This document shows positions 8,520 to 42,147 of a stretch of DNA of 64,000 bases, one piece after another; the stretch's first letter is position 1; the number at the start of each line of letters is the position of its first letter. Location: the NCBI GenBank assembly GCA_017429695.1, contig JAFROK010000040.1, forward strand, positions 1 to 64,000, read 5' to 3'. This DNA is from Clostridia bacterium. Lineage in GTDB: Bacteria > Bacillota > Clostridia > Christensenellales > Aristaeellaceae. Below the pieces are notes generated by a model. It worked only from the letters and a program-made list of their open reading frames with translations, did no database searches and was not told the origin of the DNA. A program made the position numbers and the translations under genes.

Positions 8520-8550
8520 TGACACCTGAAACCTGTCACCTGGCGCCTGG
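8520..8550. repeat. Heptameric tandem array, TGACACC type
   Basis: Four complete units with an exact 7-bp period (first unit TGACACC, second TGAAACC, two further variants ending in ACC or GCC) plus a partial fifth. It lies in the divergent intergenic region between the phosphodiesterase gene and psuK. It is the only one of the five 7-bp arrays in the window not sitting on a stop codon. Confidence 0.7.
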
Positions 8551-8557
8551 AAACCCT

Positions 8558-8587
8558 CTGGCATTTTTCCCGATAATCCGTTATAAT
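8558..8587 (+). promoter_or_regulatory. Predicted promoter of psuK-psuG-malY
   Basis: CTGGCA at 8558-8563 and a perfect TATAAT at 8582-8587, 18 nt apart, about 73 nt before the psuK start codon. It follows directly after the heptameric array. Confidence 0.6.
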
Positions 8588-8659
8588 AATCCCGATCAAA
8601 CAACCGAAATGCCGGCACCGCCGGCAAAATCATCGGTCCGGAAAGGAGCATCCGGTCAT

Positions 8660-9583
8660 ATGGCAAATCAACCGTTGGCGGTCGTTATCGGCGGCGTCAA
8701 CATCGATATCGGCGGGCGTTCTTTTGCCCCGCTGGTTCCGAAGGATTCCAACCCCGGCCGCGTCACAATGAGTCCCGGCGGCGTCGGGCGGAATATCGCC
8801 CATAACCTTCGCCTGCTGGGCGTCCAGGTCAGCCTGCTGACCGCCCTGGGAGACGATATGTACGCAAAGCATATCGCCTCCTCCTGCACAGCCCTGGGCA
8901 TTGATCTCAGCCACGCGCTTAAGATCCCCGGCGGTGCCACGTCCACTTATGTTTTCCTGAACGGGCCCGATGGCGATATGGCGCTGGCCCTCTCCGACAT
9001 GACCATCTGTGAACAGATTACTCCGGCTTATCTGTCGCAGCACCTGGACCTGATCTCCCGGGCAGATGTGATTGTTGTGGATGCCAACATCCCGGCGGAA
9101 TCCCTGGCCTGGGTCACAGAGCATGCTGCCGCTCCGGTCTTTGCGGATCCGGTATCCACCACAAAAGCCGTGAAGCTCCGCCCGTTCCTCCACCGGCTGC
9201 ACACCCTGAAGCCGAACCGCCTGGAAGCGGAACTGCTTACCGGTGTGGAAATCACGGATGATATCAGCATGTTCCGGGCCGCCCGCGCCTTGCTGGATAC
9301 CGGCCTGGAGCGCGCCGCCATCACCCTGGGCGGCCGCGGAATCCTCGCCGCCGACGCCAACACCATCGAGATTATTCCCGCCTGCCCGGCGCAGGTCCGG
9401 AACGCCACCGGCGCCGGCGATGCCTTTATGGCAGCGCTTGTCTGGTCCTGGTTGCAGCATGAGTCCCTTCCCGTTTCCTGCCGGGCAGCCGCAGCCGCTG
9501 CAGCCCTTGCGGTGGAAGGCGATGAAACCATCAACCCGGCGTTATCCCCCGAAGCGGTCCGCCGCCGGATGAAAGCTAACTGA
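8660..9583 (+). CDS. psuK: Pseudouridine kinase (PfkB family)
   Basis: 307 residues, cytoplasmic. It phosphorylates pseudouridine to pseudouridine 5'-phosphate, the substrate of the next gene. PfkB family hallmarks: an N-terminal GGVNIDI, the substrate-loop motif SPGGVGRNIAHNL (PsuK-like, resembling E. coli YeiC with its SNPG preceding it), and the C-terminal ATP/anion-hole signature NATGAGDAFMAAL with the catalytic Asp. Assignment to pseudouridine rather than another sugar rests on the N-terminal motifs and on immediate linkage to psuG. The ATG at 8660 has AAGGAG 11 nt upstream; a longer in-frame reading from 8609 lacks such a site. The stop codon lies inside a heptameric repeat. Confidence 0.9.
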   Translation: MANQPLAVVIGGVNIDIGGRSFAPLVPKDSNPGRVTMSPGGVGRNIAHNLRLLGVQVSLLTALGDDMYAKHIASSCTALGIDLSHALKIPGGATSTYVFLNGPDGDMALALSDMTICEQITPAYLSQHLDLISRADVIVVDANIPAESLAWVTEHAAAPVFADPVSTTKAVKLRPFLHRLHTLKPNRLEAELLTGVEITDDISMFRAARALLDTGLERAAITLGGRGILAADANTIEIIPACPAQVRNATGAGDAFMAALVWSWLQHESLPVSCRAAAAAAALAVEGDETINPALSPEAVRRRMKAN

Positions 9584-9607
9584 AATCTGATAACTGAAAG
9601 TTGAAAG
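9580..9607. repeat. Heptameric tandem array, CTGAAAT type, on the psuK stop codon
   Basis: Four units with exact 7-bp period, consensus CTGAAA(T/G) with one CTGATAA and one TTGAAAG variant. The psuK stop TGA (9581-9583) is in the first unit, and the last unit runs into the AAAGGAG ribosome site of psuG. Each unit carries TGA, so stops recur in all three frames. Confidence 0.7.
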
Positions 9608-9615
9608 GAGTCCCT

Positions 9616-10530
9616 ATGAACAAGTATCTTGATGTCAAACCCGAAGTTGCCGAGGCCATCGCCGCCGGAAAGCCGGTGGTTGCCCTCGAATCCACCATCA
9701 TTTCCCATGGCATGCCCTATCCCCAGAATGCGCAGACTGCGCTCAGCGTGGAGCAGATCATCCGGGACAACGGCGCCGTGCCTGCCACCATTGCCATCAT
9801 CGGCGGCCGCCTGAAGGCCGGCCTGACGCCGGAGGAAATTGAATACTTCGGCAAAAAAGGGCCGAAGATCGCCAAAGCTTCCCGCCGTGACCTGGCCATT
9901 CTCTGCGCCCGGGGCGAAGACGGGGCCACCACCGTCACCACCACCATGATGATCGCCGATATGGCAGGCATCCGCGTCTTTGCCACCGGCGGCGTCGGCG
10001 GTGTCCACCGCGGTGCGGAAACCACCATGGACATCTCCGCCGACCTGGAAGAGCTGGCATCCACGCCGGTCATGGTCGTCTGCGCGGGCTGCAAGTCCAT
10101 CCTGGATCTCGGGCTGACGCTGGAATACCTGGAAACCAACGGCGTACCGGTCATCGGCTACGGTACGGAAACCCTGCCTGCCTTCTACACGCGGGAATCC
10201 CCCTTCAGGGTCGATTACCGGATGGATACCCCGGAGGAAATTGCGAAAGCCTTCCGGATCAAGAATGAAATGGGCCTCCGGGGCGGCATGCTGGTCACCA
10301 ATCCGATTCCGGCGGAATACTCCATGGATCCCGCCGTCATCAACAAGGCCATCGATGACGCGGTGGAAGAAGCCCGGCAAAAGGGCATTCACGGCAAAGA
10401 AACCACACCTTTCCTGCTGGCCCGGATCAAGGATATCACCGGCGGGGATTCCCTGGATTCCAATATCCAGCTGGTATACAACAACGCACGCCTCGCCGCC
10501 CGGATTGCCAAAGCCTACTGTGAAGGATGA
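9616..10530 (+). CDS. psuG: Pseudouridine-5'-phosphate glycosidase
   Basis: 304 residues, close to the 312 of the E. coli enzyme. It cleaves the C-glycosidic bond of pseudouridine 5'-phosphate, giving uracil and ribose 5-phosphate. The family is recognised by VALESTIISHGMPYPQN near the N-terminus, the AIIGGRLKAGL stretch, TTVTTTMMIADMAGI, FATGGVGGVHRGAE (the metal/substrate loop) and NPIPAEYSM towards the end. The ATG at 9616 has AAAGGAG 5 nt upstream. It follows psuK by 32 nt and precedes a MalY/PatB-like lyase by 7 nt, so the three are very likely one transcript for salvage of modified nucleosides from RNA turnover. Confidence 0.94.
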   Translation: MNKYLDVKPEVAEAIAAGKPVVALESTIISHGMPYPQNAQTALSVEQIIRDNGAVPATIAIIGGRLKAGLTPEEIEYFGKKGPKIAKASRRDLAILCARGEDGATTVTTTMMIADMAGIRVFATGGVGGVHRGAETTMDISADLEELASTPVMVVCAGCKSILDLGLTLEYLETNGVPVIGYGTETLPAFYTRESPFRVDYRMDTPEEIAKAFRIKNEMGLRGGMLVTNPIPAEYSMDPAVINKAIDDAVEEARQKGIHGKETTPFLLARIKDITGGDSLDSNIQLVYNNARLAARIAKAYCEG

Positions 10531-10537
10531 TCGCCCC

Positions 10538-11740
10538 ATGAAATATGATTTTGATTTGATGCCGGACCGCCGCGGAATGGATGCCATCGCGATCGACAGC
10601 ATCGGTTCTCCCGGCGCACCGGCCGCGCCGAAAGAAGGTTTTTCCGCCATTCCGATGTGGGTGGCGGACATGAATTTTGCAGCCTGCCCTGCCATCCAGG
10701 ATGCCGTCATCCGCCGGGTGCAGCATCCGGCCTTTGGCTATTTCGACCCGTCCCGGGCATATTACGATGCGATCATCTCCTGGCAGCGGGACCGGAATGG
10801 CGTGGAAAACCTTTCTTCCCGGCATATCGGTTATGAAAACGGCGTGCTCGGCGGCGTTGTGTCGACGCTGAACGTCCTCTGCTCCCGGGGCGATACGGTT
10901 CTCCTGCAAAGCCCGACCTATATCGGCTTTACCCATGTGCTCGAAAACAATGGATACCGGATCATCATCAATCCGATGAAGCGGGACGAAGCCGGCATCT
11001 GGCGCCTGGATTACGAGGATATGGAGAAAAAGATCGTTGAGCACCATATCCATGCAACCATCTTCTGCAATCCCCACAATCCCTGCGGCCGGGTCTGGGA
11101 GCCGGAGGAAATCCGGAAAGCAATGGAGATCTTTGAACGGCACGGTGTCTGGGTCGTCTCCGATGAAATCTGGTCCGACCTGCTGCTGAACGGTGCCCGC
11201 CATACGCCGACCCAGTCCGTCTGCGATTATGCCCGATTCCACACAGCCGCCTTCTATGCCCCTTCCAAAACCTTCAACCTGGCCGGGCTTGTCGGCAGCT
11301 ACCACATTATTTACAGCGACTGGCTCCGGGACCGGCAGGCAAAGGAAGCCTCCCTCTCCGCCTACAACAGCATGAACGTGCTGTCCATGCACGCCCTCAT
11401 CGGCGCCTACGGTCCGGAGGGACGGGAGTGGGTGGATCAGCTCCGCACCGTGCTCTCCCGCAATGTAAACGATGCCTATGATTTCATCCTGCGGCATTTT
11501 GACGGGATCACCCTGATGAAACCCCAGGGAACGTATATGCTTTTCCTGCATTGTGAAGAATGGTGCCGGAAGCACAACAAAAACGTCGGCGACCTGCTGA
11601 AGGCAGGAACCGACGTCGGAGTCGCCTGGCAGGACGGGCGCATGTTCAACGATCCTTTTGGAATCCGCATGAACCTGGCCCTTCCCCACGCTGTCGTCAT
11701 GGAAGCTTTTTCACGGCTGAAGGAATACGTCTTCGCCTAA
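10538..11740 (+). CDS. MalY/PatB family PLP-dependent C-S lyase (cystathionine beta-lyase)
   Basis: 400 residues, normal for the family. Fold-type I aminotransferase-like enzyme with WVADMNF near the start, the SDEIWSDL motif with the PLP-contacting Asp, and the Schiff-base lysine in APSKTFNLAG (K244). Members split cystathionine or cysteine to pyruvate, ammonia and a thiol; some also act as regulators (MalY) or give hydrogen sulfide. The ribosome site GAAGGA lies within the end of psuG, so it is translated right behind it. Why a C-S lyase sits with pseudouridine catabolism is not evident. It ends convergently, overlapping the MATE gene stop by 4 nt. Confidence 0.88.
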   Translation: MKYDFDLMPDRRGMDAIAIDSIGSPGAPAAPKEGFSAIPMWVADMNFAACPAIQDAVIRRVQHPAFGYFDPSRAYYDAIISWQRDRNGVENLSSRHIGYENGVLGGVVSTLNVLCSRGDTVLLQSPTYIGFTHVLENNGYRIIINPMKRDEAGIWRLDYEDMEKKIVEHHIHATIFCNPHNPCGRVWEPEEIRKAMEIFERHGVWVVSDEIWSDLLLNGARHTPTQSVCDYARFHTAAFYAPSKTFNLAGLVGSYHIIYSDWLRDRQAKEASLSAYNSMNVLSMHALIGAYGPEGREWVDQLRTVLSRNVNDAYDFILRHFDGITLMKPQGTYMLFLHCEEWCRKHNKNVGDLLKAGTDVGVAWQDGRMFNDPFGIRMNLALPHAVVMEAFSRLKEYVFA

Positions 11741-13098
11741 ATCTTCAGGTCCACCCATTTTCCTTTCCGGAAACGGGTGGAAACCAGCACAAACCGGGTC
11801 GCCTGGTCCGCCAGGATGCCGATCCATACCCCGTGCAGTTTCAGGTCAAATACATAAACCAGGATCACGGTAACGGCCGTCCGGATAATGGCAATACTGA
11901 CCGTCGCCGCCATCAGCACATACCGTACGTCTCCGGCCGCCCGCAGGCAGCCGGAGAATATAATTTGCGAAATCTGCAGCAGGATAATCACCGTCATATA
12001 CCGGCAGATGATTTCCCCGGTTGCCAGCACCTCCGCGTCCGCCGAGAACAGAGAGAAATACCACCTGCCCCCGACAATCAGCAGCAGGGAAAGAATCAGC
12101 GAAATCGCCAAGCCAATCCGTTGGCAGATCGTCGCGTATTTCCGGGCCGCGTCCTTCTGCCCGGCGCCCAATGCTTCCCCGCTTAGTGCCACCGCGGCCA
12201 CCTGCATGCCGTCCGCAAAGGAGAATCCCAGTCCCAGCAGCTGCATACCGATATTGTGGGCCGCAAACAGTTTCGTTCCCAGGCGGGCAGCCACCAGCGC
12301 CGTTGCCAGGAAACCGATGCGGGCGGCAATATTTTCCAGGGAAGAATTGTACGCAATCCGCCAGATGGATTTCCATATAGCGGAAGAAAACCGGAGCTTC
12401 AATTTCCGGATCAGCGGAATACTGACATAGCTGTTGGCGCGGAACAGGGAGAAGATCGCCATTCCAGCAGACACCACAGTGCCCAGCACGGTCGCGATGG
12501 CCGCGCCTTTGATTTCCCACCGCGGAAATCCCATATTCCCTTCTATCAGCAGATAATTGAATATCACATTGACGATACTACTGGTCAGGTTCGTGGTCAT
12601 ACTCAGGCGGGTATTACCGCTACCCCGCTGGGCCGCGTTGATCACCATCGTAATCACGTTGAAGATCGTACCGGCCATAATGATCCGGAAATACTCCACC
12701 GCCTGTTCATGCGTTTCCGCGTTGCTGCCGGAGATTTCCATCATCCAGGGGGTAAACACCACAAACACCGTAGTGATCAGAATACACAGGAGCAGGGAAA
12801 CCACCCCTGCCGTCACCAGGATCCCGTTTGCCTGTTCCCGGTCCTGCTCCCCTTTGCGCCGGGCCACCAGTGCGGATACCGCCACATTGATGCCGAAGAA
12901 CAGGGTCAGTCCGATAAACTTCGGCTGCACGGTCAGGCCCACAGCTGAGATGGCCGATTCGCCCAGCGCCGAAACCATCATGGTGTCGATCATTCCGGCC
13001 AGCGTCACGAAAAGCATTTCCGCCATTGCCGGCCATGCCACGCCCAGTGCCTTCCGGACCATGGCCCCGTTATTGATTACCTGCTTTTTCTTTTCCAC
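11737..13098 (-). CDS. MATE family efflux transporter
   Basis: 453 residues with about twelve membrane helices arranged as two similar halves, as in the MATE/NorM/DinF superfamily of cation-coupled multidrug antiporters. The N-terminal region AWPAMAEMLFVTLAGMIDT and the second-half GLGFSFADGMQVAA are typical. It is the last gene of the minus-strand operon beginning with the 5'-nucleotidase C-domain gene, 36 nt after the ECF component; that gap is filled by a heptameric repeat. Substrate is unknown. Ribosome site GGAGG lies upstream of the ATG at 13098. Confidence 0.9.
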   Translation of the reverse strand: MEKKKQVINNGAMVRKALGVAWPAMAEMLFVTLAGMIDTMMVSALGESAISAVGLTVQPKFIGLTLFFGINVAVSALVARRKGEQDREQANGILVTAGVVSLLLCILITTVFVVFTPWMMEISGSNAETHEQAVEYFRIIMAGTIFNVITMVINAAQRGSGNTRLSMTTNLTSSIVNVIFNYLLIEGNMGFPRWEIKGAAIATVLGTVVSAGMAIFSLFRANSYVSIPLIRKLKLRFSSAIWKSIWRIAYNSSLENIAARIGFLATALVAARLGTKLFAAHNIGMQLLGLGFSFADGMQVAAVALSGEALGAGQKDAARKYATICQRIGLAISLILSLLLIVGGRWYFSLFSADAEVLATGEIICRYMTVIILLQISQIIFSGCLRAAGDVRYVLMAATVSIAIIRTAVTVILVYVFDLKLHGVWIGILADQATRFVLVSTRFRKGKWVDLKI

Positions 13099-13114
13099 GT
13101 TTCCTCCATCAAAT

Positions 13115-13148
13115 ACTAACCACTAACCTAACCACTAATCACTAACCA
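13115..13148. repeat. Heptameric tandem array, ACTAACC type, on the ECF gene stop codon
   Basis: Five units of ACTAACC (7-bp period, one unit shortened by 2 nt, one variant ACTAATC). Read in the direction of the minus-strand genes the unit is GGTTAGT. The last codons and the TAG stop (13135-13137) of the ECF S gene are made of this repeat, and the repeat fills most of the gap to the MATE gene. Confidence 0.8.
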
Positions 13149-13662
13149 GTCCTTCGCGCTCCATCACCAGCACCAGTACTGGAATCAGCACAATATGCAT
13201 GATGATGCCGGGAACCGCCTTGGTCACCGCGCCGGCCAGGAAAGCGGCCATCGTAAATTCGCTGTGCGTCAGGCCGGCAATCACTGCCTGTGCCAGTCCC
13301 CATACCAGCCGGCCGATGATCATCGCACTGATCAGCGCTGCGTAGACAGCCCATTTTTTCCGCGGAAGGATTCGGTACAGGATCCCGGAAACCGTGCCGT
13401 ATGCTGCCAGTTCAAACGCCATGGCCACCGCCGACGGAAACATCACCGGCATTCCGAACACGGCGGAGCGCAGCGGCGCCGCAATCAGGCCCACCGCCAG
13501 CCCCCACGGCCATCCGCACATGAACCCGCACAGCAGCACCGGAATATGCATCGGGCTCAGCATCTGTCCGATCTCCGGAATCTGCCCGGTGATCAGCGGC
13601 AGCACCATCGCGATGGCAAGAAACAGCGCCGCATAGGTCATTTTCCGGATTCTCCGGGACAT
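13135..13662 (-). CDS. ECF transporter S component (substrate unknown)
   Basis: 175 residues, almost entirely hydrophobic, five to six membrane helices, as in the small substrate-capture subunits of energy-coupling-factor vitamin/metal importers. The beginning, KMTYAALFLAIAMVLPL, resembles many S components. The EcfA/EcfT energising module is not in this window, so it presumably shares a group II module encoded elsewhere. The ATG at 13662 has AGGAAG 10 nt upstream and begins 7 nt after the DUF3842 stop. Its C-terminal residues VSD and its stop codon are encoded by a heptameric repeat, so the end of the protein may have been set by repeat insertion. Confidence 0.75.
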   Translation of the reverse strand: MSRRIRKMTYAALFLAIAMVLPLITGQIPEIGQMLSPMHIPVLLCGFMCGWPWGLAVGLIAAPLRSAVFGMPVMFPSAVAMAFELAAYGTVSGILYRILPRKKWAVYAALISAMIIGRLVWGLAQAVIAGLTHSEFTMAAFLAGAVTKAVPGIIMHIVLIPVLVLVMEREGLVSD

Positions 13663-13669
13663 ATTCTGC

Positions 13670-14092
13670 TTACTTCCTGCTGCCATGCTGAACAATCTCC
13701 CGGATATGGGCCATCGCGTCTTCCAGGATGGCGGCCGATCCCTGTGCCACGCCGGCCACATAGGTCCGGCAGAGGTTCATGGGAATCAGTACGCGATAGG
13801 CGGTGCTGGAGGCCACCGCATTCGCCATGGCTGGGGAGATTTCACCCAGCAGTGCATCCGCTGTGGCAATCCCCACCGGGCCGACAATAATATCTGCATT
13901 CCGCGCCCCGACGATGACCGCGTTTTCACCGGTTGCCAGGTGATCGGCGCAATCGCTCCGCATCATATTTTCGGTTGCCATGCTGTTGGTACCGATGGCC
14001 GTCAGGTCCGCCTCCGGAAATTCCTTCCGGACCCCTTCAACCAGTTTACGGCCCAGGCGTCCGCCCTGTCCGTCAATTACCAGGATTTTCAT
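13670..14092 (-). CDS. DUF3842 family protein
   Basis: 140 residues, cytoplasmic, a small Rossmann-like protein. It shows the family pattern MKILVIDGQGGRLG, GTNSMATENMMR, TGENAVIVGAR, DIIVGPVGI, LLGEISPAMA and IPMNLC. DUF3842 has no assigned reaction; the N-terminal glycine motif suggests nucleotide binding. I chose the ATG at 14092; a GTG at 14107 overlaps the previous stop codon and is possible. It lies between a BtuF-like lipoprotein and an ECF S component, which suggests a link to uptake of a cofactor, but that is inference. Confidence 0.85.
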   Translation of the reverse strand: MKILVIDGQGGRLGRKLVEGVRKEFPEADLTAIGTNSMATENMMRSDCADHLATGENAVIVGARNADIIVGPVGIATADALLGEISPAMANAVASSTAYRVLIPMNLCRTYVAGVAQGSAAILEDAMAHIREIVQHGSRK

Positions 14093-14103
14093 ATCGCCTG
14101 TTT

Positions 14104-15123
14104 TCACTCCCCGCCGTTATAAAAGAACACCGCTTCCGGAATTGTTCCGGTTGCTTCCTCTGTCAATGCTTTCAGGGCTTCCCGGACATCCACGTCCGGG
14201 AACAGCTCCGGATAGGCCGTTTTTGCAATCAGCAGCTCCGCCGTCAGTTTCAGGTGCGGCGCCTCCGTCATTTCCGGTGCAATCAGGATCACCCGCCCTG
14301 CCTGTACCGCGCGGATGCCGCTCCAGCCTTCCCGCTGCATCATGCCGCTGTGGATATTCTCCGCCGCAAATGTGGTAAACACGCTGCTTCCCAGCGTACC
14401 TGCCGGAGCAACCCGGATGATCACATCCGGATTCTTCCGCACCACCCATCCGGCATCCACCAGAAGCCGTTCCTCCGTCAGCCTTCCGGATACGTCATAG
14501 CAGCCGCTGTCCATGATCATCCGGTGCTCCGGAGATGTCCGGAAAACAGTCTGCCATTCGTCGGCTGTTTCCCAGTACGCGTAAAGACGCTTGCATTCCA
14601 TCAGCGTCCCCAGCCGGTCTGTCAGCAGCACCCGGTAGTAATCCGCAACGGTCTCGGCGGTTTTTGCGTCCTCGGCCACACCCATCCGGTCCGCTTCTCC
14701 CACGGAAACGATCCGGGTCGCTGATTTTTCCGCGTCCTCTCCCAGCATGCTTTCCCGGCGTTCCGCTTCCGGATTGTTCCGGGATGATGCTCCACCGGTT
14801 CCTTCGCCGGCTGCTGTATGGGAAGCGCCGGGAATGATCTCCGCGTCCGCATCCGCGTCATATTCCTTCCGGTCTGCTTCCGGGTTTTCCCGGGTACTGT
14901 CTCCTGAATCGGATATTTCCGGTTCAGCCTCCGCTGCCCAAGCCGTCCGGTCTGATGCTTCTTCCTGTCCGGGGGATGCATTGCCGGAATGGACCTGGTC
15001 CGGTACATTCCCGCCCGGGGCAGATTCCAGCGTCGTCCGTACCCGGCAACCGCCCAGAAGGATCAGCAGCATAACTGCTGCCGGCAGGAGCAGCAGCCGG
15101 TATCGTTTCTTCATTCCGTTCAT
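14104..15123 (-). CDS. Lipoprotein with BtuF/FecB-like periplasmic-binding C-terminal domain
   Basis: 339 residues. A lipoprotein signal peptide ends in the lipobox LLGGC (Cys26), so the mature protein is tethered to the outer face of the membrane. Residues about 30-125 are rich in Glu, Ala, Asp and Ser and probably disordered. The remainder resembles the metal-chelate type of ABC substrate-binding protein: NPDVIIRVAP, REGWSGIRAVQAGRVILIAP and a C-terminal helix with ELLIAKTAYPELFPD. The N-terminal lobe is poorly recognisable, so it may be divergent. No matching ABC permease is nearby; the ECF S gene two genes downstream is a possible partner. The ATG overlaps the upstream stop (ATGA), implying coupled translation. 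Confidence 0.65.
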   Translation of the reverse strand: MNGMKKRYRLLLLPAAVMLLILLGGCRVRTTLESAPGGNVPDQVHSGNASPGQEEASDRTAWAAEAEPEISDSGDSTRENPEADRKEYDADADAEIIPGASHTAAGEGTGGASSRNNPEAERRESMLGEDAEKSATRIVSVGEADRMGVAEDAKTAETVADYYRVLLTDRLGTLMECKRLYAYWETADEWQTVFRTSPEHRMIMDSGCYDVSGRLTEERLLVDAGWVVRKNPDVIIRVAPAGTLGSSVFTTFAAENIHSGMMQREGWSGIRAVQAGRVILIAPEMTEAPHLKLTAELLIAKTAYPELFPDVDVREALKALTEEATGTIPEAVFFYNGGE

Positions 15124-16295: not shown

Positions 16296-16310
16296 GGCCG
16301 TTCCTCCCCG

Positions 16311-17429: not shown

Positions 17430-17431
17430 CG

Positions 17432-29368: not shown

Positions 29369-29399
29369 GTCATCCTGAATGCAGTAAAGGATCTCCGCC

Positions 29400-29434
29400 C
29401 CAACTAACCACTAGCAACTAACCACTAATCACTA
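29400..29434. repeat. Heptameric tandem array, ACTAACC type, on the murG stop codon
   Basis: Four full units and a partial one with exact 7-bp period (ACTAACC, with ACTAGCA and ACTAATC variants). The murG TAG stop (29432-29434) is the first bases of the element in the gene's direction. Sequence and orientation match the arrays at 13115 and 42109. Confidence 0.8.
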
Positions 29435-32456: not shown

Positions 32457-33077
32457 ATGAAAACAGACAGGCTCTGGGTCAACGGAAATATCCGCCGGAC
32501 CAGTGAAATCAATGACATCCTGCGGGAATTTGCAGCCAATTCCGGAATCACCGGAAAAAACGTACTGCATATGACCTTGCTCGCGGAAGAAATGCTGGGC
32601 ATGGCCAATCAGCTTCTGAAGGATTTTGACGGCGAAATCTGGCTGGAAACGACCTCCGACGGATATGAAATCATCCTCGAAGCGGATGTCCGAGAAAACG
32701 AAGCAGGCGTTGCAACCGCGCCGGATGCACCTTTGGGATTCATGGCAAAAATTGCGGAAATGCTGAATTGCTCCTATATGTTTGAAGACATTTCGGAAAT
32801 GCCGGAAAACCTGGCCGCCATGCTCCCCGATTACCTGAGTTACGGTCTTCGGGAAACAGGAAGCACCCCGGTCTGGGCCGGCAAATGGTCACTGTCCTTA
32901 TATCGCAGCAATCTCCGGAAGGTTCCGGATTCCGGGCTGAATCTGGATGAACTGGAAAAATCGATCGTTGCCAGCCTGGCGGACGATGTGACAATCGGCA
33001 TTCACGGCCGCCGGCTCCGTCTTGCAATCATCAAAAAAAATCAGGTAAAGCCCTGCATAAAGCAAAGAACGGAATAG
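32457..33077 (+). CDS. HATPase-like (anti-sigma/RsbW-type) protein, divergent
   Basis: 206 residues, cytoplasmic. The stretch HMTLLAEEMLGMANQLL (about 39-55) resembles the N-box helix of GHKL ATPases of the anti-sigma factor type, and the protein has a suitable alpha/beta pattern, but the G1 and G2 ATP-lid glycine motifs are not convincing. A C-terminal segment predicted to be beta-strand (VTIGIHGRRLRLAIIKK) follows. It may be a degenerate kinase-fold regulator. GGGAGG lies 7 nt before the ATG. It sits between cstA and a GGDEF gene, so it may act in the same signalling path. Confidence 0.5.
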   Translation: MKTDRLWVNGNIRRTSEINDILREFAANSGITGKNVLHMTLLAEEMLGMANQLLKDFDGEIWLETTSDGYEIILEADVRENEAGVATAPDAPLGFMAKIAEMLNCSYMFEDISEMPENLAAMLPDYLSYGLRETGSTPVWAGKWSLSLYRSNLRKVPDSGLNLDELEKSIVASLADDVTIGIHGRRLRLAIIKKNQVKPCIKQRTE

Positions 33078-33094
33078 AGGAAGAGAGGCCTGTT

Positions 33095-34600: not shown

Positions 34601-34620
34601 TAAACAGAGGGGAACCCGAA

Positions 34621-36222
34621 ATGCGGCAGCTGCTGAAAAACGCGAAAATCTATGACGGAACCGGCGCGGAGCCTTATCAGGCGGATATCCTGCTGAAGGA
34701 TGACCGGATTGCGAAGATTGCCGGCAGCATCGATCTTCCGGCGGATCAGGTATATGACCTGGCCGGGAAGTCCGTTTCCTCCGGTTTTATCGATGCCCAC
34801 TCCCATAACGACTGGTTTGCCATCAAAAAGGATCCGCTTCCCTATTTCAGCCCCTTCCTGCGTCAGGGAATCACCACCTTCATCACAGGTAACTGCGGCA
34901 TTTCCGAGATCGGTTTTGAAAAGGGCAATTCCTTTACGGACAAACTGGGCGGCGGAATTTTCGGTTTCCGGGAAACCACCGGCCAATACGGCACAGCGGA
35001 AGCATACTTCCGGGCAACAGACCGGCAGATGCCCTGCAATATGGCGGTGCTGGCCGGTCACTGTTCTGTCCGTGCGGCAGCCGGAGGCGTGGAGAACAGG
35101 CCGCTGACCCCGGAAGAGGAAAAGCGGATGCTGGATCTGCTGGAACAGGCGCTGCAGCAGGGTGCCGCCGGTATTTCCCTGGGACTGATGTATCAGCCGG
35201 GCCTGTATGCCGGTACCGATGAGCTGAAAAAGGTTGCCGCCCTCTGCGTGAAATACGGCAAGCCCCTGACGGTGCATCCCCGGGCGGAATCAAAGGTTTC
35301 CATGGCCTATCCCCAGCTGTTCGGCCGTTCCCACCTGCTCCGTGCGGTGGATGAACTGGTGGAGATTGCAAAGGGCACAAACCTGAAGCTCCAGTATTCC
35401 CATGCGATCTTTGTCGGCCGGAAAACCCTGAAGGACAAGGATGAACTGCTGAAAATCTTCGCCCGGCTCCGTGCCGAAGGTGTGGATGTCATGTTCGACA
35501 TCTATAACGAGTGCCTGGGCGTGTCGGTGATTACCGTCATTCTTCCCGCCTGGTACCAGGGCATGACGGAAAAGCAGCGGTCCGGCCTGCTTACCCGTCT
35601 GAAGCTGGCCATTCTGATCAAGGCCTCCAGCATCCTACTCGGATTCGGGTTCAGGGATATCCAGATTGCCTACATTGGTCCGGGATATGAAAAATATGAA
35701 GGAAAGACGGTTCATCAGATTGCGAAAGAAGAAGGAATTTCTGACCTGAAAGCTTATCTGATGCTTTGCGAAAAGAGTGGATTCGTCGGCCGTGTCAACA
35801 TGGGGCCTTATTCCACGCCGGAGATTATCAGCGACTTTGAGCACAATGAATACTGCCTGTATATGACCGATGCATGGGTGGAGGATCATGGCGTCCAGAA
35901 TCCTGCGATATACGATTGCTACCCGAAATTCCTTCGGGATTCCCTGCGGGGCACCGGAGATACCCTGCCGAATACAATCCGGAGAATGACCGGTGCCATT
36001 GCCGACCGGTTTATGCTTCCGGACCGCGGTTACCTGAAGGAAGGTTACTATGCAGACCTGACCGTCTTTGATGAGGAAGCCCTGAAAAACGGCATTCCGG
36101 ATCAGGAAAAGCCCTTCGGCATTGAAAAAGTCTTTATCAACGGCGTTCAGGTGCTCAGCGAAAACCGGCTGGATGAAAGCGCACTGAAAAAGACCGGGCA
36201 TGCCATCCCGGTCTTCGGATAA
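34621..36222 (+). CDS. N-acyl-D-amino-acid deacylase (D-aminoacylase)
   Basis: 533 residues, amidohydrolase superfamily, cytoplasmic. Metal ligands in FIDAHSHND (H60, H62), the family's bridging cysteine in GNCGIS (C92), further histidines in TVHPRAES and QYSHAIF, and the C-terminal beta-domain with DLTVFD and VFINGVQV. It removes the acyl group from N-acyl-D-amino acids, which would salvage D-amino acids from peptidoglycan or peptides. It lies 20 nt after the GGDEF gene with GAGGGG upstream. Its 3' end overlaps the convergent NagZ-like gene by 68 nt. Confidence 0.87.
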   Translation: MRQLLKNAKIYDGTGAEPYQADILLKDDRIAKIAGSIDLPADQVYDLAGKSVSSGFIDAHSHNDWFAIKKDPLPYFSPFLRQGITTFITGNCGISEIGFEKGNSFTDKLGGGIFGFRETTGQYGTAEAYFRATDRQMPCNMAVLAGHCSVRAAAGGVENRPLTPEEEKRMLDLLEQALQQGAAGISLGLMYQPGLYAGTDELKKVAALCVKYGKPLTVHPRAESKVSMAYPQLFGRSHLLRAVDELVEIAKGTNLKLQYSHAIFVGRKTLKDKDELLKIFARLRAEGVDVMFDIYNECLGVSVITVILPAWYQGMTEKQRSGLLTRLKLAILIKASSILLGFGFRDIQIAYIGPGYEKYEGKTVHQIAKEEGISDLKAYLMLCEKSGFVGRVNMGPYSTPEIISDFEHNEYCLYMTDAWVEDHGVQNPAIYDCYPKFLRDSLRGTGDTLPNTIRRMTGAIADRFMLPDRGYLKEGYYADLTVFDEEALKNGIPDQEKPFGIEKVFINGVQVLSENRLDESALKKTGHAIPVFG

Positions 36223-38173
36223 TCAATCCAATCACGGTGCCTGTGGCCCCGCTGGCAGACTCGCCGCGGGGCCACAGGATATCTTCTGCCGGCCGATAGT
36301 TTTCATCCAGTGCTGGAATATTCACCGGCAGTGTACCACTGGGTTCTCCTTCTCCGAACGCCGCGCACAGGGCGACCGGCAGGTTGGCCGACCAGGTGGT
36401 ATCCTCCGCCGGAATCTGCCGCATCGCGCTTCCCCAGTAGCTCAGCAGGATCGCATCCGCCTCCGGGAATCGTGCGGCGTCATAAGGCAGCTGGCAGCTG
36501 ACAAGGATCACGGTCTTCCCGGCTGCATGAACCGCGTCAATCACCTTGTCAAATGTGCTGGAAGAGAAACCGTCATCCGTGGCCGGATCCATGCATGCCC
36601 AGCTGTACACCCGGTGTACCAGGACCACATGGTCCGCTTCCGTTGCCGCCTGAATGCATTCATCCTCATTGTCCCGCGTATTTTTCATCACCAGGATCTC
36701 CGCGCTTTCGGGAAGCGCGTTTTTTTCTTGCAGCAGCTGCCGGGCAAAATCCCCGGTACCCGCGCGGCTGGCGCAGGAATCCGCGAAGAGGATCAGCGTT
36801 TTCTCCCCCGCCGCCATCCGTACCGGGAAAGCATCCTGTTCGTTTTTCAGCAGCGTCAATGCCTTTTCCGCAATCTGCCATTCCGTTTCCCGGTGGGCTT
36901 CAGAACCGATCCCGCTCTTTGCGGCTGCAATCTGTTCGTCCGTAACCGAAAACTCCGTCCGGTCCAGCAGCCCGTATTTCTGCTTCATCTTCAGGATCCG
37001 GCGGACGGATTCATCAATGCGTTCCTCGCTGATTTCCCCGCGCCGCACCAGTTCCATGGCAATATTGACATAATTTTCCGTCTGGCGGAAAAGATCCGTA
37101 TCCTTGACGCACGGCAGGATCAGCAGGTCCACACCGGCCCGGATGGTCAGCCGGATCGTATCCTCCATGCTGAAGTTATCCGCAACGGCCGCCATGTCAA
37201 GCGCGTCGGAAACAATCACGCCGTCAAAGCCCATGTCGCCCCGCAGGATATCCGTCAGGATCGTCCGGCTCATGGTTGCCGGAAGGTACACCTGCTCCCC
37301 GGTGGAAACGGAAGTGTACATTTCCTGCTCAATCTGCGGATACTGGATATGGGCCGTCATCACCATGTCCGCCCCGGCTTCGATGCCCGCCCGGAACGGA
37401 ATCAGTTCACAGGCCTGCAGTTCCTCATAAGTACTGTTGATGACCGGAAAACCGGTATGGCTGTCCGTATCGGTGTTCCCGTGCCCCGGAAAATGTTTCA
37501 ATGCCACAGCCCGTCCGGTATCATGCAGGCCGCTGACAAAAGCAGTGCCGAAGGCCGCGACAGTCTGCGGATCATCGGAGAAGGAACGGATATCGATCAC
37601 CGGATTGGCCGGATTGCTGTTGATATCCACCACCGGTGCGAAATCCGCCTGGATGTCCAGCAGGCGCAGTTCATCCCCGAGGACAGCCGCCATCTTCCGG
37701 GCGTTTTCCGGATCCCCTGTGGCGCCCAAGGCCATATTGCCTGTACCCTGCATGCTGTAGCCGATCCGGTTGACTCTTCCGCCCTCATGATCCGTAAAAA
37801 TCATCTGGGGCAGCCCGCCGCCGGCCCGGTTCGTTGTCTGCAGGTCCTCAATCAGCCGGAGGGTTTGCTCCGGATCCGTAAAATTCTCGGCAAACAGCAG
37901 AATCCCGCCGAAGTGGTCCCTGCTGATCATTTCCCGGATTTCGTCGTTCAGTTCCGTAATATTGACGCCCTTGGATTCCTCCGCCGGGTTCTCTGCGCCG
38001 TCCTCCGGCACTTCCTTCCATATCCGGAAGGAAGCAATCATCATCTGGGCCACCTTATCCCGCAGGGACATCCCGGACAGAATCTGTTCCACCTCATCAT
38101 TTTCCGTCTTTTCAGCCGCCGCGCAGCCGGAAAACAGCAGTGCGAACACAAGCAACAGACTGATCAGTTTCAT
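36155..38173 (-). CDS. Glycoside hydrolase family 3 lipoprotein, beta-N-acetylhexosaminidase (NagZ-like)
   Basis: 672 residues. Lipoprotein signal ending in LLFSGC (Cys17), so it is displayed on the membrane. The GH3 barrel contains the NagZ catalytic dyad motif KHFPGHGNTDTDSH and the nucleophile in VIVSDALDMAAV; a second alpha/beta domain of about 230 residues follows. It should remove N-acetylglucosamine from muropeptides or similar sugars. The C-terminus is odd: after ILWPRG, where relatives usually end soon, some 40 extra residues are encoded across a 12-bp inverted repeat and a terminator, overlapping the convergent gene. The true stop may have been lost. Last gene of the ylbF operon, 24 nt after clostripain. 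Confidence 0.85.
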   Translation of the reverse strand: MKLISLLLVFALLFSGCAAAEKTENDEVEQILSGMSLRDKVAQMMIASFRIWKEVPEDGAENPAEESKGVNITELNDEIREMISRDHFGGILLFAENFTDPEQTLRLIEDLQTTNRAGGGLPQMIFTDHEGGRVNRIGYSMQGTGNMALGATGDPENARKMAAVLGDELRLLDIQADFAPVVDINSNPANPVIDIRSFSDDPQTVAAFGTAFVSGLHDTGRAVALKHFPGHGNTDTDSHTGFPVINSTYEELQACELIPFRAGIEAGADMVMTAHIQYPQIEQEMYTSVSTGEQVYLPATMSRTILTDILRGDMGFDGVIVSDALDMAAVADNFSMEDTIRLTIRAGVDLLILPCVKDTDLFRQTENYVNIAMELVRRGEISEERIDESVRRILKMKQKYGLLDRTEFSVTDEQIAAAKSGIGSEAHRETEWQIAEKALTLLKNEQDAFPVRMAAGEKTLILFADSCASRAGTGDFARQLLQEKNALPESAEILVMKNTRDNEDECIQAATEADHVVLVHRVYSWACMDPATDDGFSSSTFDKVIDAVHAAGKTVILVSCQLPYDAARFPEADAILLSYWGSAMRQIPAEDTTWSANLPVALCAAFGEGEPSGTLPVNIPALDENYRPAEDILWPRGESASGATGTVIGLIIRRPGWHARSFSVRFHPAGFR
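36186..36215 (-). terminator. Intrinsic terminator inside the overlapping gene ends
   Basis: A perfect 9-bp stem AAGACCGGG / CCCGGTCTT (36190-36215) with an 8-nt loop, followed on the minus strand by a run of five T. It ends NagZ-operon transcripts although it lies before the annotated nagZ stop codon and within the D-aminoacylase 3' end. Confidence 0.72.
36241..36277. repeat. 12-bp perfect inverted repeat
   Basis: CTGTGGCCCCGC and its exact reverse complement, 13 nt apart, inside the C-terminal coding end of the NagZ-like gene, just after the D-aminoacylase stop. No U-run follows on either strand. Confidence 0.8.
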
Positions 38174-38197
38174 GGTGCCATCCCTCCGTCTTTCTCT

Positions 38198-40315
38198 TTA
38201 TTGCCATTTTGCCGGGAAAGAGCCTTCCCAGGCAAAGTCCTCCGGGAACGTCATATTTTCACCATCCCAGTGAATCTCGATCCGTTCCATTCTGCATTTC
38301 CGCAGGAACAAATCTTCCAGCTCGTATTCCAGGTAATAGGTTCCGGCCGGCAGCGTGATTTCCTGAACGTCCAGCGCCCGATACATCTTTTTGCTCTCGC
38401 TGGCCATATAGGACACGGTGGTGCCGTCCGCTCCGGCAACCGGATACAGCAGCCTGTATTCCTGGCCCGCCAGCATGGCCAGCGGCGTCACATTGCGGTT
38501 CGGCATTTTGCTGTTTTCGTCATATCCTTCCCAGACACCGTAGATTTCATACGCGCTGTTCAGGTCACCATCTGTTCCGTCCTTTGAAATCGTCCGCCCG
38601 CAGCGAAGAATCGCGTTCTCCGTATTGATCTGCACCGGAATGTTGTATACTCTGGTGATATAGTCGTTCTGAACCATGTCAATGCAGCACAGGGTGCCGT
38701 CCACCGCCGGCCAATGCATGGGATCATTGGCCAGGAAAATCAGTCCGTCTTCATCAGCCATATCATAGCTGCAGCTGGTCTTTCCCAGCCGGATGATCTC
38801 ACCGGTTTCCGCGTTCAGCTGATACAGAGTGTAGTAACCGTCGCTCAGGCTAAAAATGGCCGAATCCGGAACCTTGATCCCGGGCAATCCGTTACTGGTA
38901 GCAAGCGTCCGGGTAATGGTCACTTGCATCTGCTCAATTGTGTCAATATGCGGCAGCTTCTCCACCTGTTCATATACCTCATCCGGTGCGCTCCAGCCGG
39001 ATATGGCGTCGAGGAAAGCCAGGTAGGCAGGCAGCGGAAAATTCTTTGCATAGTGATCCATTTCCTCGTTGGTAAAGCCGGCCGGATAGCAGAAGGTCAG
39101 TCCGCGCGCTTCGCTGCGCCCGGGCCCGCGGACAATATAGACAACTGCCTCCTGAAGAGCACTCATCATATTGCCAAGCTGTTCAGGGTTCGTGATGTTG
39201 TTCATCTGTACATCATAGATGATACTGCCGAAATCACGCATGTTCTGCTGTCCGTCGCCATATTGCTCCGTTTCATAGATCTGCCGTGTATATTGGCTGA
39301 TCAGCTTCACATTGCTCCGGAGAGAATCCCCCATCATGCTGAAAAACTGTTCAAATGACGCCACCAGCGGATCAATTTTGCTCAGGTCGATCACCGACCA
39401 GGTCAGTAGGGATTTATCCCGTTCTTCCTCAAGGTCGGCATACTTGATCGCGGTCATATCGCAGATGCATCTTCCCAGCCATTCGCCTCCCAGCTGAGGG
39501 CAGTTGACCAGCGCCCTCAGCCAGTCGCTGATGGCGGTACCCTTTCCGGGTACGTTTTCCTCAGAGGCCACCATCCATCTCGCGGAATCCTTCACTGCCC
39601 ATGCGGTTTCGATATTGGCCATCAGGCATGCATCAATCACCAGCGTTTCCAGCTGAACGCTGCCGCCCTTCAGTGCCTGTTTCAGTTCATCCAGATACAT
39701 GACATCGCCTTTGAAAAGCTCGTCAATAAACAGGCCGGATCCGGATCCGCCGCCATGGTCCCACAATACCAGCGCATACTTTTTCGCCGGGTAGTTTTCC
39801 GCACTCCAGCGGATAAAATCAGCCAGTGTGTTCGGATCTGCCATGCTTCGAAGCGGCAGCGTCTCCTTCAGTTCAAAGGGATACACGTTGCTCTGCAGAT
39901 GCGATTCCACAAATTCCCTGGGAAGATCCGTCGGATAATAACGGTAATACCAGCGTTGCAGGGCATCCGTTGCAATGTCCATATTCAGTTCCTGCGCATG
40001 CCATTCCGTACATCCGCCGGTTTCAATCACGATATTCACCTTCGGAGTATCCAGAATCACTTCAAACTCTTCATCCGCATTTTCCGGGGAGTCCACATCA
40101 TCCCACGAAAAACCGAACGGATAATTAACTGTGGAAATCTCTATCAAGTTGTCGGTGGCGTATTCATATTTCGATTCCAGGTCTGACCCGCAGAAATAAA
40201 ACATCACCGTCCATTCGTCCGGTTCCCGGGTTTCTTCCGCCGATGCGCCTGCCGGACTGCTCAGCATGATCAGCATAAGCGCCGCCGCCAGCAGGATCCA
40301 TCCTGTCTTCTTCAT
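38198..40315 (-). CDS. Clostripain-family (C11) cysteine peptidase, secreted
   Basis: 705 residues. Signal peptide 1-25. The C11 catalytic dyad is His187 in LVLWDHGGGSGSG and Cys230 in VIDACLMANIE; both are preceded by beta-strands as in caspase-like folds. C11 enzymes cleave after Arg/Lys and often self-process. The C-terminal 300 residues form a beta-rich region of unknown role. It sits between a VanW/G5 protein and a NagZ-like lipoprotein, consistent with envelope or extracellular protein breakdown. The ATG at 40315 has GGAAGGAG about 13 nt away, somewhat far. Confidence 0.87.
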   Translation of the reverse strand: MKKTGWILLAAALMLIMLSSPAGASAEETREPDEWTVMFYFCGSDLESKYEYATDNLIEISTVNYPFGFSWDDVDSPENADEEFEVILDTPKVNIVIETGGCTEWHAQELNMDIATDALQRWYYRYYPTDLPREFVESHLQSNVYPFELKETLPLRSMADPNTLADFIRWSAENYPAKKYALVLWDHGGGSGSGLFIDELFKGDVMYLDELKQALKGGSVQLETLVIDACLMANIETAWAVKDSARWMVASEENVPGKGTAISDWLRALVNCPQLGGEWLGRCICDMTAIKYADLEEERDKSLLTWSVIDLSKIDPLVASFEQFFSMMGDSLRSNVKLISQYTRQIYETEQYGDGQQNMRDFGSIIYDVQMNNITNPEQLGNMMSALQEAVVYIVRGPGRSEARGLTFCYPAGFTNEEMDHYAKNFPLPAYLAFLDAISGWSAPDEVYEQVEKLPHIDTIEQMQVTITRTLATSNGLPGIKVPDSAIFSLSDGYYTLYQLNAETGEIIRLGKTSCSYDMADEDGLIFLANDPMHWPAVDGTLCCIDMVQNDYITRVYNIPVQINTENAILRCGRTISKDGTDGDLNSAYEIYGVWEGYDENSKMPNRNVTPLAMLAGQEYRLLYPVAGADGTTVSYMASESKKMYRALDVQEITLPAGTYYLEYELEDLFLRKCRMERIEIHWDGENMTFPEDFAWEGSFPAKWQ

Positions 40316-40349
40316 TGATCCGATCCAGCTCCTTCCGTTTTCCGGAGTC

Positions 40350-42092
40350 TCAGCGCGGATTGTGTTCCACCGTCTCCTGGTAGGCTTTGTAGGTCGTGGT
40401 AAACAGCAGTTCCCGTCTTTCTTCCTTGTTGCCGCGGTACCAGATCTTGTATGTTTCCACCACATACCCTTCCCGGGCTTTTACCGTCGTTTTGGATTCG
40501 CCCGGCTGCAGGTCTGTATTGATGACATAATTGATACCGGTCGGTTTCGGAATGGTCTTGACCAGCTTGCTTTCCAGGTCGATTTTTACGTCTTTTCCGA
40601 GGCTGTACCCGTAAATATTCACCGTCACCTTCCGGTCGGAATATCCGGCCACAATGAATACCGGCCACTCCGTATTATTCCGGAACTTCATGTCCAGCCC
40701 GGGATAGTTCACCGTCGCGTCAAAGCCCTTTTCAATATAGCTGGACGGCCACGCGTGCGGATTCCGCTCCAGGATTTCCAGGTCCGCCCTCACCGCCGCA
40801 TTGAACAGCGTGGAGCTCGTCTGGCATACGCCGCCGCCGACCTCGTCCTTGCTCTGCCCGCCCGCAATGGCCGGTGCCTCCTTGTAGCCTTTTTCCGCTG
40901 TCCGCTCTCCGGTGGCGCCGTTGAAGGAGAAGATTTCCCCCGGCAGTACAGTAATCCCGTTGATCGCTTTCGCGCTCAGCTCAATGTTCTTGTTGCGGTT
41001 CTTGTCCTTCGTGGTCGTGGTGGTATAGGCGGAAATCAGGCCGAACCGGTTCATCAGTTCCGTCCGGGTCACATCCGCCAGCACCTTTTCGGGAATAAAC
41101 CTTACGGTGTCGGATGTTGTGCCGCCGTCCAGGATGCCGGCCAGAGTCGCGTACATATATTCCGGATCCAGTTTCGCGCCGGGCTGGTCCTCGGTAAAGG
41201 TAAACGTCTTGCTGCCGAAGTTGAAGGATTCCACCGTACTGTTCACCGGATCCCGGTTTACATAATTGGCAATGCCTTCCACCACGGTCCGCAGTGCCTT
41301 GTGGTCATAGCTCTGTTCTGTCCACAGGTACAGCGGTTCCCTTTCGAGTTCTTCATACCGGCTGATCCGTTCCTCCAGCGGCGTGCGGTTGCCGCCCAGG
41401 TCTTCCGTATTGTTTCTCCCGGTGGCCCAGGCCTTGTCCACCGTCGCGGTAATATTCCGGGTAAAAGGAACCCGCTGGTTGTTCACGTGCCACGTTTCAT
41501 TGCCCACGCTGACCACGATGTCAAAATCCGTGTCAAGTTCCTGGTGGGCTGCCCTCACAGCCGCTTTGGCCTCTTCCCGCGTCATCCCGCCGACATATAC
41601 GTTGTCAATATAGATATTGGGATAAATCCTATCCGTATAGATTTTCTTTTCCCATTCATCCAGCCATGTTTTTTTCTTTTCGTCCAGGGCCAGGATGCTG
41701 TTATTTGCAAAAGCATAATTCGGCAGCGAGTAAAAACGGATCCCCAGCACCTGCGGTGCCATAAATATCCCGGTGCCGATCAGCAGTAGCGCGCAGATCA
41801 CGCATACCACAGCCCACCCGGTCTGCTTCTTTTTCTTTTTCCGGGGAATAAACCGTGTTTCCCGCGTCTGGTTCCCGTTAAACCGGTCAAAATCATCAAA
41901 CAGCGTTGTCCCGGGTTCCCCCAGTCCGTCATCATACCGGTCATAATGACCGTTCCGCCGCTGCGGCGCCTCTGTATCCCGGGAAGCCGGCTTCAGGCAT
42001 CCCGGAAGCTGTCCCCGGCTCAGATCGGGCCGCTCCTCCGGAATCACGTCCCAGTTTCCCTCATAATACTCGTACTCTTTCTTCCTCGCCAT
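40350..42092 (-). CDS. VanW family membrane protein with G5 domain
   Basis: 580 residues. A charged cytoplasmic N-terminus (about 1-85, ending in a basic cluster RKKKKKQ), one transmembrane helix (about 88-112), a putative peptidoglycan-binding region (PG_binding_4-like, about 150-360), a VanW domain (about 370-500, with PGEIFSFNGATGERT, EVGGGVCQTSSTLFNA and NPHAWPSSY) and a C-terminal G5-like domain with PGESKTTVKAREG. Such proteins sit on the cell wall and may bind or modify peptidoglycan, but no enzymatic role is established. GGGAG lies 6 nt before the ATG at 42092. A heptameric array separates it from the upstream U32 gene. Confidence 0.87.
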   Translation of the reverse strand: MARKKEYEYYEGNWDVIPEERPDLSRGQLPGCLKPASRDTEAPQRRNGHYDRYDDGLGEPGTTLFDDFDRFNGNQTRETRFIPRKKKKKQTGWAVVCVICALLLIGTGIFMAPQVLGIRFYSLPNYAFANNSILALDEKKKTWLDEWEKKIYTDRIYPNIYIDNVYVGGMTREEAKAAVRAAHQELDTDFDIVVSVGNETWHVNNQRVPFTRNITATVDKAWATGRNNTEDLGGNRTPLEERISRYEELEREPLYLWTEQSYDHKALRTVVEGIANYVNRDPVNSTVESFNFGSKTFTFTEDQPGAKLDPEYMYATLAGILDGGTTSDTVRFIPEKVLADVTRTELMNRFGLISAYTTTTTKDKNRNKNIELSAKAINGITVLPGEIFSFNGATGERTAEKGYKEAPAIAGGQSKDEVGGGVCQTSSTLFNAAVRADLEILERNPHAWPSSYIEKGFDATVNYPGLDMKFRNNTEWPVFIVAGYSDRKVTVNIYGYSLGKDVKIDLESKLVKTIPKPTGINYVINTDLQPGESKTTVKAREGYVVETYKIWYRGNKEERRELLFTTTYKAYQETVEHNPR

Positions 42093-42108
42093 CTGAAACT
42101 CCCAGTCC

Positions 42109-42147
42109 ACCAACCACTAACCACTGACCACTAACCACTAATCACTA
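42109..42147. repeat. Heptameric tandem array, ACTAACC type, on the U32 peptidase stop codon
   Basis: About six units with exact 7-bp period (ACTAACC, with variants ACCAACC, ACTGACC and ACTAATC). The TAG stop of the U32 gene (42145-42147) is the first bases of the element read in the gene's direction, and the array fills the gap to the VanW gene. Confidence 0.85.

Follow-up and report, generated by a model that had tools for sequence, protein, structure and literature searches.

Heptamer repeat arrays in a Clostridia genome: polarity at gene edges, TAG stop codons and a possible replication-linked origin

Introduction

We describe arrays of 7-bp tandem repeats that lie between the genes of a Clostridia bacterium (Aristaeellaceae; assembly GCA_017429695.1), taking as reference a 64,000-nucleotide stretch, positions 1 to 64,000 of contig JAFROK010000040.1, hereafter called the window. 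The STRR heptamers of heterocystous cyanobacteria are likewise 7-bp tandem units in gaps, probably with different unit sequences. Among the long simple repeats of most bacterial genomes studied, those with 7-bp units are the most frequent (Mrazek 2007 as cited in PMC4679880), and slippage has been proposed for such repeats (Mrazek et al. 2007 as cited in PMC4679880 and PMC4692102). Rehm et al. 2015 (PMC4692102) described the GGGAATC and GGGGA(C/T)T heptamers of Xanthomonas and Nostoc; the G-strand 5′ end of the Xanthomonas GGGAATC repeats lies nearer the open reading frame (ORF), whichever way the ORF is directed. MacGregor 2015 (PMC4679880) described TAACTGA direct repeats in Beggiatoaceae, Cyanobacteria and Bacteroidetes, and flagged as worth checking eight Microcystis sets that stand between stop codons in one chromosomal orientation. 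Short tandem repeats are also made by the DRT10 reverse transcriptases, which produce telomerase-like repeats as protein-primed cDNA in phage defence (PMC12632851). A 2025 survey of short tandem repeats reported no mean enrichment in bacteria, and the term "stop codon" is absent from its text (PMC12699852).

Heptamer repeats have thus been reported piecemeal, from cyanobacteria, Xanthomonas and giant sulfur bacteria, and their origin was left open there. An earlier note, made from the window's letters alone, knew of no stop-linked family in Clostridia; to say that no such link had been described would be too strong, since there are repeats that overlap stop codons in Xanthomonas and Nostoc (PMC4692102). 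Here we show that the heptamer arrays of this genome are confined to gaps, are anchored at gene edges with a polarity, are phase-locked to TAG stop codons, follow a strand bias within their genus and consist of species-specific units.

Results

The units listed as three different sequences in the earlier note proved to be variants of one theme, CTRAYMM on one strand (the C-strand) and TYAGKKR on the other (the G-strand). We sorted them into F1, CTAAYCA (ACTAACC), F2, CTGAYAA, which is the published TAACTGA in rotation when Y = T, and F3, CTGAYAC; the G-strand units are mostly TTAGTGR, TCAGTTR and TCAGGTR, with no GGG tract. Across the whole draft genome (G000; 3.03 Mb, 60 contigs, 88% complete), ACTAACCACTAACC with at most one mismatch gave 87 matches (29 forward, 58 reverse) and CTGAYAMCTGAYAMCTGA at the same tolerance gave 48 forward and 54 reverse matches, while the reversed controls of both gave 0. 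Arrays, defined by three or more CTRA cores, were then collected from 977 kb; many of these stretches had been fetched for carrying arrays, and rates were therefore taken solely from a preset 464 kb, the window plus 20 preset stretches. In that sample, nine intergenic arrays of period 7 were found against 0.3 expected from shuffles, and other periods from 4 to 16 gave at most 4. With a stricter score applied to the whole sequence, 6 arrays had period 7, one lying in coding-like sequence, and 8 had period 12, which is divisible by three.

The same period recurred with other units. In a relative of the same genus, G175, which is assembled as a single contig and was sampled in evenly spaced stretches (400 kb), 43 intergenic period-7 arrays were found versus 1.3 in shuffles, with units including AATTCAY, AATTMAG, AATGCAY and AGGTAGG. 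In the relative G158, sampled in stretches picked at array sites (378 kb), the count was 15 versus 1.0 and the units were TTAGTTR and TTAGTGG. Period 14 was raised as a harmonic (4 in the own genome, 29 in G175, 12 in G158), and the remaining periods stayed at 4 or below. Thus, the period is shared among these genomes, but the unit is not. Within arrays of the own genome, neighbouring units alternate: identity at lag 1 was 87/340 (shuffles 112 ± 6.7) and at lag 2 was 102/242 (shuffles 80.7 ± 6.1). No such alternation was seen in G175 or G158, where identity at lag 7 exceeded that at lag 14, and the order of unit variants counted from the stop showed no clear register.

Genes were called with a home-made codon-usage gene finder. 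In the 977 kb, 98 of 99 arrays lay outside predicted genes, and five randomised copies of the sequence held 3, 1, 1, 0 and 2 arrays; arrays on the same contig are not independent. The gene finder was near-empty on two stretches, L060 (C31:1-20000; coverage 0.03) and L063 (C39:1-20000; coverage 0.06), perhaps because of very long open frames leaving the ends or of an odd composition. The earlier note had proposed a preference for stop codons, and the distances bear it out: an array edge fell within −15 to +6 nt of the stop at 54 of 89 gene-end sides, compared with 24.2 by random placement. The corresponding values were 13/48 (6.4 expected) in G175 and 9/15 (3.3 expected) in G158. Gene starts are edges too: where the G-strand begins at a gene start (35 arrays), it lies within 27 nt of that start in 25. 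F2 arrays are divided between the two edges, with 12 of 21 facing a gene start (7 within 27 nt) and 9 beginning at a gene end, whereas the other families favour gene ends.

The arrays are also polar. At gene ends of the own genome, the G-strand 5′ end was the one nearer the gene in 51 of 61 cases. In G158 the same polarity was found at 17/19 gene ends and 4/4 gene starts (21/23 of all edges), in G094, from another genus of the family and again sampled at array sites, at 13/14 gene ends and 13/16 gene starts (26/30), and in G175, read on the AATKMAN strand, at 23/23 gene ends and 8/9 gene starts (31/32). Neighbouring arrays on opposite strands converge in all cases, 14/14 in G094, G158 and G175 together and 4/4 in the own genome. 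These data show that the G-strand starts at the gene edge and runs into the gap. As a separate observation, three G175 stretches (L208, L213, L215) contain convergent AATTCAY pairs that enclose 35-162 bp of differing sequence in eight gaps. A miniature inverted-repeat transposable element (MITE)-like element with arrays as its ends was considered and rejected, because the middles of the convergent pairs shared no obvious sequence by eye.

Next to the arrays, stop codon usage is strongly altered. The 51 gene 3′ sides touched by arrays in G-strand sense end in TAG in 38 cases, TGA in 10 and TAA in 3, whereas TAG ends only 29 of 637 other genes (Fisher p = 4.6e-33). The link between the arrays and stop codons is therefore real, and the family keeps a fixed orientation relative to the gene that it touches, as the earlier note had suspected. 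The 13 genes touched in C-strand sense end in TGA (10) or TAA (3). Of the 280 genes in the preset sample, 15 have a TAG stop, and the three of these that lie at arrays are all in the window. Similarly, TAG was found at 5/17 touched versus 14/301 other genes in G158 (p = 0.0017) and at 3/8 touched versus 14/215 other genes in G094. The stop is moreover in register with the repeat: CAG or TAG stands exactly seven bases past the stop in 35 of 67 TAG genes, 7 of 320 TGA genes and 6 of 313 TAA genes, and the stop was in phase with the array at 35 of 50 ends (F1 21/28, F2 4/7, F3 9/13, other 1/2).

To compare orthologous gene ends, as the earlier note had proposed, we chose 14 array junctions, all with TAG in the own genome, and 12 gave orthologue matches. 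At these 12 gene ends, only 1 of 32 orthologue copies in the relatives G174, G175 and G066 has TAG, the remainder having TAA or TGA; G158, which bears arrays itself, has TAG at 3 of 11. By eye, at least two relatives end at the own-genome residue in 6 of the 12 sets, such as that of the DNA polymerase I homologue (NWAEAK), and in the other six some relatives have ends displaced by between one and roughly a dozen residues. The same protein end with a differing stop in the clear cases places the junction at the stop codon itself. Pre-existing TAG stops attracting arrays are not favoured, given TAG at 1/32 orthologous ends in the relatives. Inspection by eye further found an array of G158's own unit after the stop at 4 of the 11 G158 junctions, which suggests either that the genomes share sites whose units turn over or that certain sites are favoured. 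In G174, G175 and G066, 4 of the 32 junctions have an AATTCA-type array on the stop or close to it, likewise by eye.

Replication direction was approximated by GC skew in the fetched DNA within 25 kb, the skew-positive strand being taken as leading. The G-strand lies on the skew-positive strand in 87 of 98 arrays, on 25 contigs (F1 42/42, F2 16/21, F3 24/29, other 5/6). Because an excess of leading-strand genes alone would produce such a bias, the informative arrays are those with both neighbours on the lagging strand. Among these 18, 17 follow the skew and one follows the gene (F1 7/7). Thus, where skew and gene disagree, orientation follows the GC skew and not the gene. The rule was also found in G158 (22/24; 2/3 with lagging neighbours) and in G175 (14/16 unpaired arrays). 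Outside the genus, a few family stretches gave 7/7, G348 gave 0/2, and in mixed-phylum stretches the preference was not significant (39/67).

All five arrays reported by the earlier note are present in the window by direct reading, four of them also by Tandem Repeats Finder (TRF), and four touch stop codons, those of a kinase, an ECF S, a murG-like and a peptidase U32 gene. Pfam backs the gene families that it had named; its "psuK" is compatible with a PfkB-type kinase gene adjoining an Indigoidine_A gene. The three ACTAACC arrays share one orientation relative to the touched gene, again as noted before. The first array, F3-type with CCTGACA units (8518..8542, plus strand, TRF), lies in a divergent gap and touches no gene; by 21-bp periodicity it extends to 8511-8555, and it was too degenerate for the count of 98 arrays. 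The second is a short degenerate array, CTGAAAT CTGATAA CTGAAAG (9580..9600, plus strand), between the stop of the PfkB-type kinase gene (8660-9583, plus strand, Pfam; TGA at 9581-9583) and the ribosome-binding site that serves the gene after it; it has no TRF row and was recognised by its three CTRA cores. The Indigoidine_A gene that adjoins the kinase gene lies at 9616-10530. The F1 array at 13115..13148 (plus strand; TRF, Pfam), ACTAACC on the plus strand and GGTTAGT in the gene direction, covers the TAG of the ECF S component gene (13135..13137, minus strand), which is in phase with it. Another F1 array (29403..29434, plus strand; TRF, Pfam) lies in a convergent gap and begins at the TAG of the murG-like gene (29432-29434). 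The last, an F1 array of about six units (42107..42147, plus strand; TRF, Pfam), begins at the TAG of the peptidase U32 gene (42145..42147, minus strand), whose orthologues end in TAA in all four relatives compared.

Two further features of the region were recorded. A dispersed hairpin element of the AGATCCTT...TCAGGATGA family (29370..29394, minus strand) lies 9 bp from the array at 29403..29434. Of 12 hairpins of the AGATCCTTCGCTTCGCTCAGGATGA type matched by a strict pattern, 7 have an array no more than 60 bp away, with sites at 29370-29394 of the window and on contigs C28, C31, C39 (two), C8 and C40 of the own genome; similar hairpins were seen by eye near AATTCA arrays in relatives. The minus strand at 46882-63114 carries a 5410-aa open frame with internal repeats of 24 bp and of 84-87 bp (48037-48129, 61549-61792), perhaps a giant surface protein.

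Beyond the relatives above, the counts depended on the pattern. CTRAYMMCTRAYMMCTRAY is present in 17 of 150 genomes of the family, and with at most one mismatch in 10 of 45 genus genomes, most with fewer than 10 matches; the reversed control of the family count also matches several genomes whose CTAATCC units can be read either way. Looser pattern counts in G000 were 324 against 64 for the reversed control, and a genus pattern gave 239 against 25 in G000 and 0-2 elsewhere. Because reversed controls match here, the family, genus and G000 counts are looser than those of ACTAACCACTAACC and CTGAYAMCTGAYAMCTGA. A stricter 3.5-unit TYAGKKR pattern occurred in 12 of 398 phylum genomes and its reversed control in 10 of 398, so that TYAGKKR is not favoured over other units there. 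No period-7 array was found at the threshold used in 17 unselected family stretches (249 kb), which speaks against such arrays being universal in the family. G094, for its part, carries dozens of arrays of TTAGGGA type, a telomere-like unit, with the same polarity.

The genome collection contains exact TTAGTGRTTAGTGRTTAGTGRTTAG (TTAGTGR, 3.5 copies) in at least 119 stretches, a count made without a reversed control, against a chance expectation of about 0.004 at equal base frequencies; record titles among the matches listed include Bacteroidales, Flavobacteria, Cyanobacteria, Planctomycetes, Victivallales, Chloroflexi, Gammaproteobacteria, Clostridia and others. In the first 80 stretches (86 arrays), an ORF of at least 100 codons ends at the array 34 times in G-sense and 6 times in C-sense, compared with 140/1720 at random. 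Among the 119 listed stretches, the numbers were 49/130 in G-sense and 11/130 in C-sense (random 163/2600), and the 49 G-sense ends comprise 31 TAG, 9 TGA and 9 TAA.

Discussion

We tentatively favour, at a little short of even chances, the reading that these are intergenic heptamer microsatellites linked to replication and nucleated at the edges of genes. Random birth of arrays in gaps is hard to square with their polarity and with a junction at the stop, the strand rule points to an event at the replication fork, and the alternation of units in the own genome argues against growth by single units. New arrays would then arise by microhomology-mediated template switching during replication: the leading strand, with its 3′ end lying on the T or TA of a stop, may re-anneal to an existing repeat and copy it, which would turn TAA or TGA into TAG plus an array and leave the protein little or not changed. 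The anchoring itself, with the G-strand 5′ end at the stop codon of an ending gene or at the ribosome-binding region of a starting one, is seen in the data. Slippage and exchange among arrays could later hold the units of a species similar to one another, selection would purge arrays that enter coding or ribosome-binding sequence, and the arrays would require no function in the cell. A switch at T or TA onto a repeat could account for TAG, polarity and strand bias together.

Several points weigh against this reading. The template-switch step is inferred. Phase-locking is partly automatic in F1, where each unit carries TAG, although not in F2 or F3, and the 12 orthologue sets were selected for TAG in the own genome. 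Gene-start edges of the own genome show no polarity bias (18/35). The alternating units mean that one-unit slippage alone is insufficient. The strand rule has 11 exceptions among 98 arrays, and in convergent inverted pairs the lagging strand carries a G-strand as well. In G094, with a near-flat GC skew, 17 of 31 arrays follow it, no clear preference, and the Xanthomonas heptamers have no leading or lagging preference (PMC4692102); with the mixed-phylum result added, the rule is shown for this genus only, where it was observed in three species.

The alternative with most in its favour is that slippage happens at random throughout the gaps and that selection, together with deletion of spare sequence up to functional edges, alone sets position and orientation. 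It would explain why arrays are near-absent from genes and pressed against stops and starts, and it agrees with heptamers leading the long simple repeats of most bacterial genomes studied (Mrazek 2007 as cited in PMC4679880). It does not, however, lead one to expect one unit at many unrelated loci, the 35/50 phase-lock to the stop, or the polarity of G094 and G175 at gene ends and starts alike. We regard the explanation as unlikely overall. Simple slippage by one unit is rejected, as units alternate in the own genome.

A somewhat less probable proposal, made by MacGregor for TAACTGA, is that such arrays bind a protein or the ribosome in the mRNA between a stop and the next start. That 77 of 98 arrays lie between co-directional genes, and that several in C-sense end right before a ribosome-binding site, would suit sites acting in RNA. 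Orientation by skew in 17 of 18 informative cases means, however, that opposite strands of the array enter the mRNA at different genes; arrays also occupy convergent gaps (window 29403), and units vary among species of one genus.

We think it a long shot, though one worth stating, that an unrecognised, sequence-directed repeat-tailing process in several phyla adds species-specific heptamers 3′ of gene edges, with a polarity like that of telomeres but on gene-sized fragments, converts TAA or TGA to TAG and, in this genus, acts on the leading strand. Polarity in four species with different units, the occurrence of TTAGTGRTTAGTGRTTAGTGRTTAG in at least 119 stretches and the excess there of G-sense ORF ends, 31 of 49 with TAG, support it, and the phylum control (10/398 versus 12/398) lowers its chances slightly.

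The earlier note had suggested that a 7-bp, stop-bearing unit is selected to close every reading frame after a gene, which is very improbable. ACTAACC arrays do sit on stops and offer TAG every 7 nt in the gene direction, yet the consensus G-strands of F2 and F3 contain no TAA, TAG or TGA, although 20 such arrays stand by gene ends and 13 of the 20 are phase-locked. An array of stops would also be useless at gene starts, where 25 of 35 arrays lie within 27 nt of the start; relatives use other units (AATTCAY in G175, TTAGGGA in G094); and periods 4, 5, 8, 10 and 11 would serve equally well but number 0-3 per genome scanned. With two of three unit types stop-free in the gene direction, this function is rejected. 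Templated addition at DNA ends by a telomerase-like reverse transcriptase of DRT10 type is scarcely credible: bacterial enzymes that make tandem repeats exist (PMC12632851), and the TTAG-type units with G-strands running 5′ to 3′ away from gene edges recall telomeres, but DRT10 products are protein-primed cDNA (same source). RVT_1 gave no match in G158 or G175, both array-rich, nor in G174 or G066, and a single match, cut by the contig end, in the own genome (G000:C41:4-480; L360); this origin is rejected because RVT_1 is absent from array-rich relatives. An assembly artefact or chance, which a draft of 60 contigs at 88% completeness might invite, is practically negligible given zero reversed-control matches for ACTAACCACTAACC and CTGAYAMCTGAYAMCTGA, 0-3 arrays in randomisations against 99, and similar rules in the single-contig G175.

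A polarity seen with different units in four species, a strand rule holding across three species of a single genus and stop codons that differ at the junctions make an old curiosity testable. They bear on how a short repeat first nucleates and then spreads through a bacterial chromosome, and on the reason for a period of seven; annotators should also note that a TAG stop in genomes of this kind may derive from a repeat. Among the titles and abstract openings listed by searches of open-licence papers, none described a stop-codon swap to TAG or a replication-strand rule for heptamers.

Set against described systems, the stop-linked heptamers fall within a class of bacterial repeats that is known but little understood: their period 7 is far above chance and 98 of 99 arrays lie in gaps, as in the heptamer simple-repeat class, for whose long members the citing accounts, as far as their text was seen, give no gene-edge polarity or strand rule. 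With DRT10 products they share being short tandem DNA repeats in bacteria. MacGregor's TAACTGA repeats are likewise intergenic and present in two to several copies, with a sporadic phylogeny. The F2 unit CTGATAA is the same heptamer rotated (F2 makes up 21 of 98 arrays), whereas F1 and F3 differ; and TAACTGA stands mostly just before starts, over the ribosome-binding site, whereas F2 is split between gene starts (12/21) and gene ends (9/21). The GGGAATC repeats of Rehm et al. have a GGG tract able to form G-quadruplexes, which our units mostly lack, and no strand preference, whereas 87 of our 98 arrays place the G-strand on the skew-positive strand; the TAG phase-lock and the stop swap are features of this genome that the text seen does not mention for the Xanthomonas and Nostoc repeats (PMC4692102). 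What the GGGAATC repeats have in common with our arrays, except at the gene starts of the own genome, and with those of G094, G158 and G175, is the geometry in which the 5′ end of the G-strand lies at the ORF.

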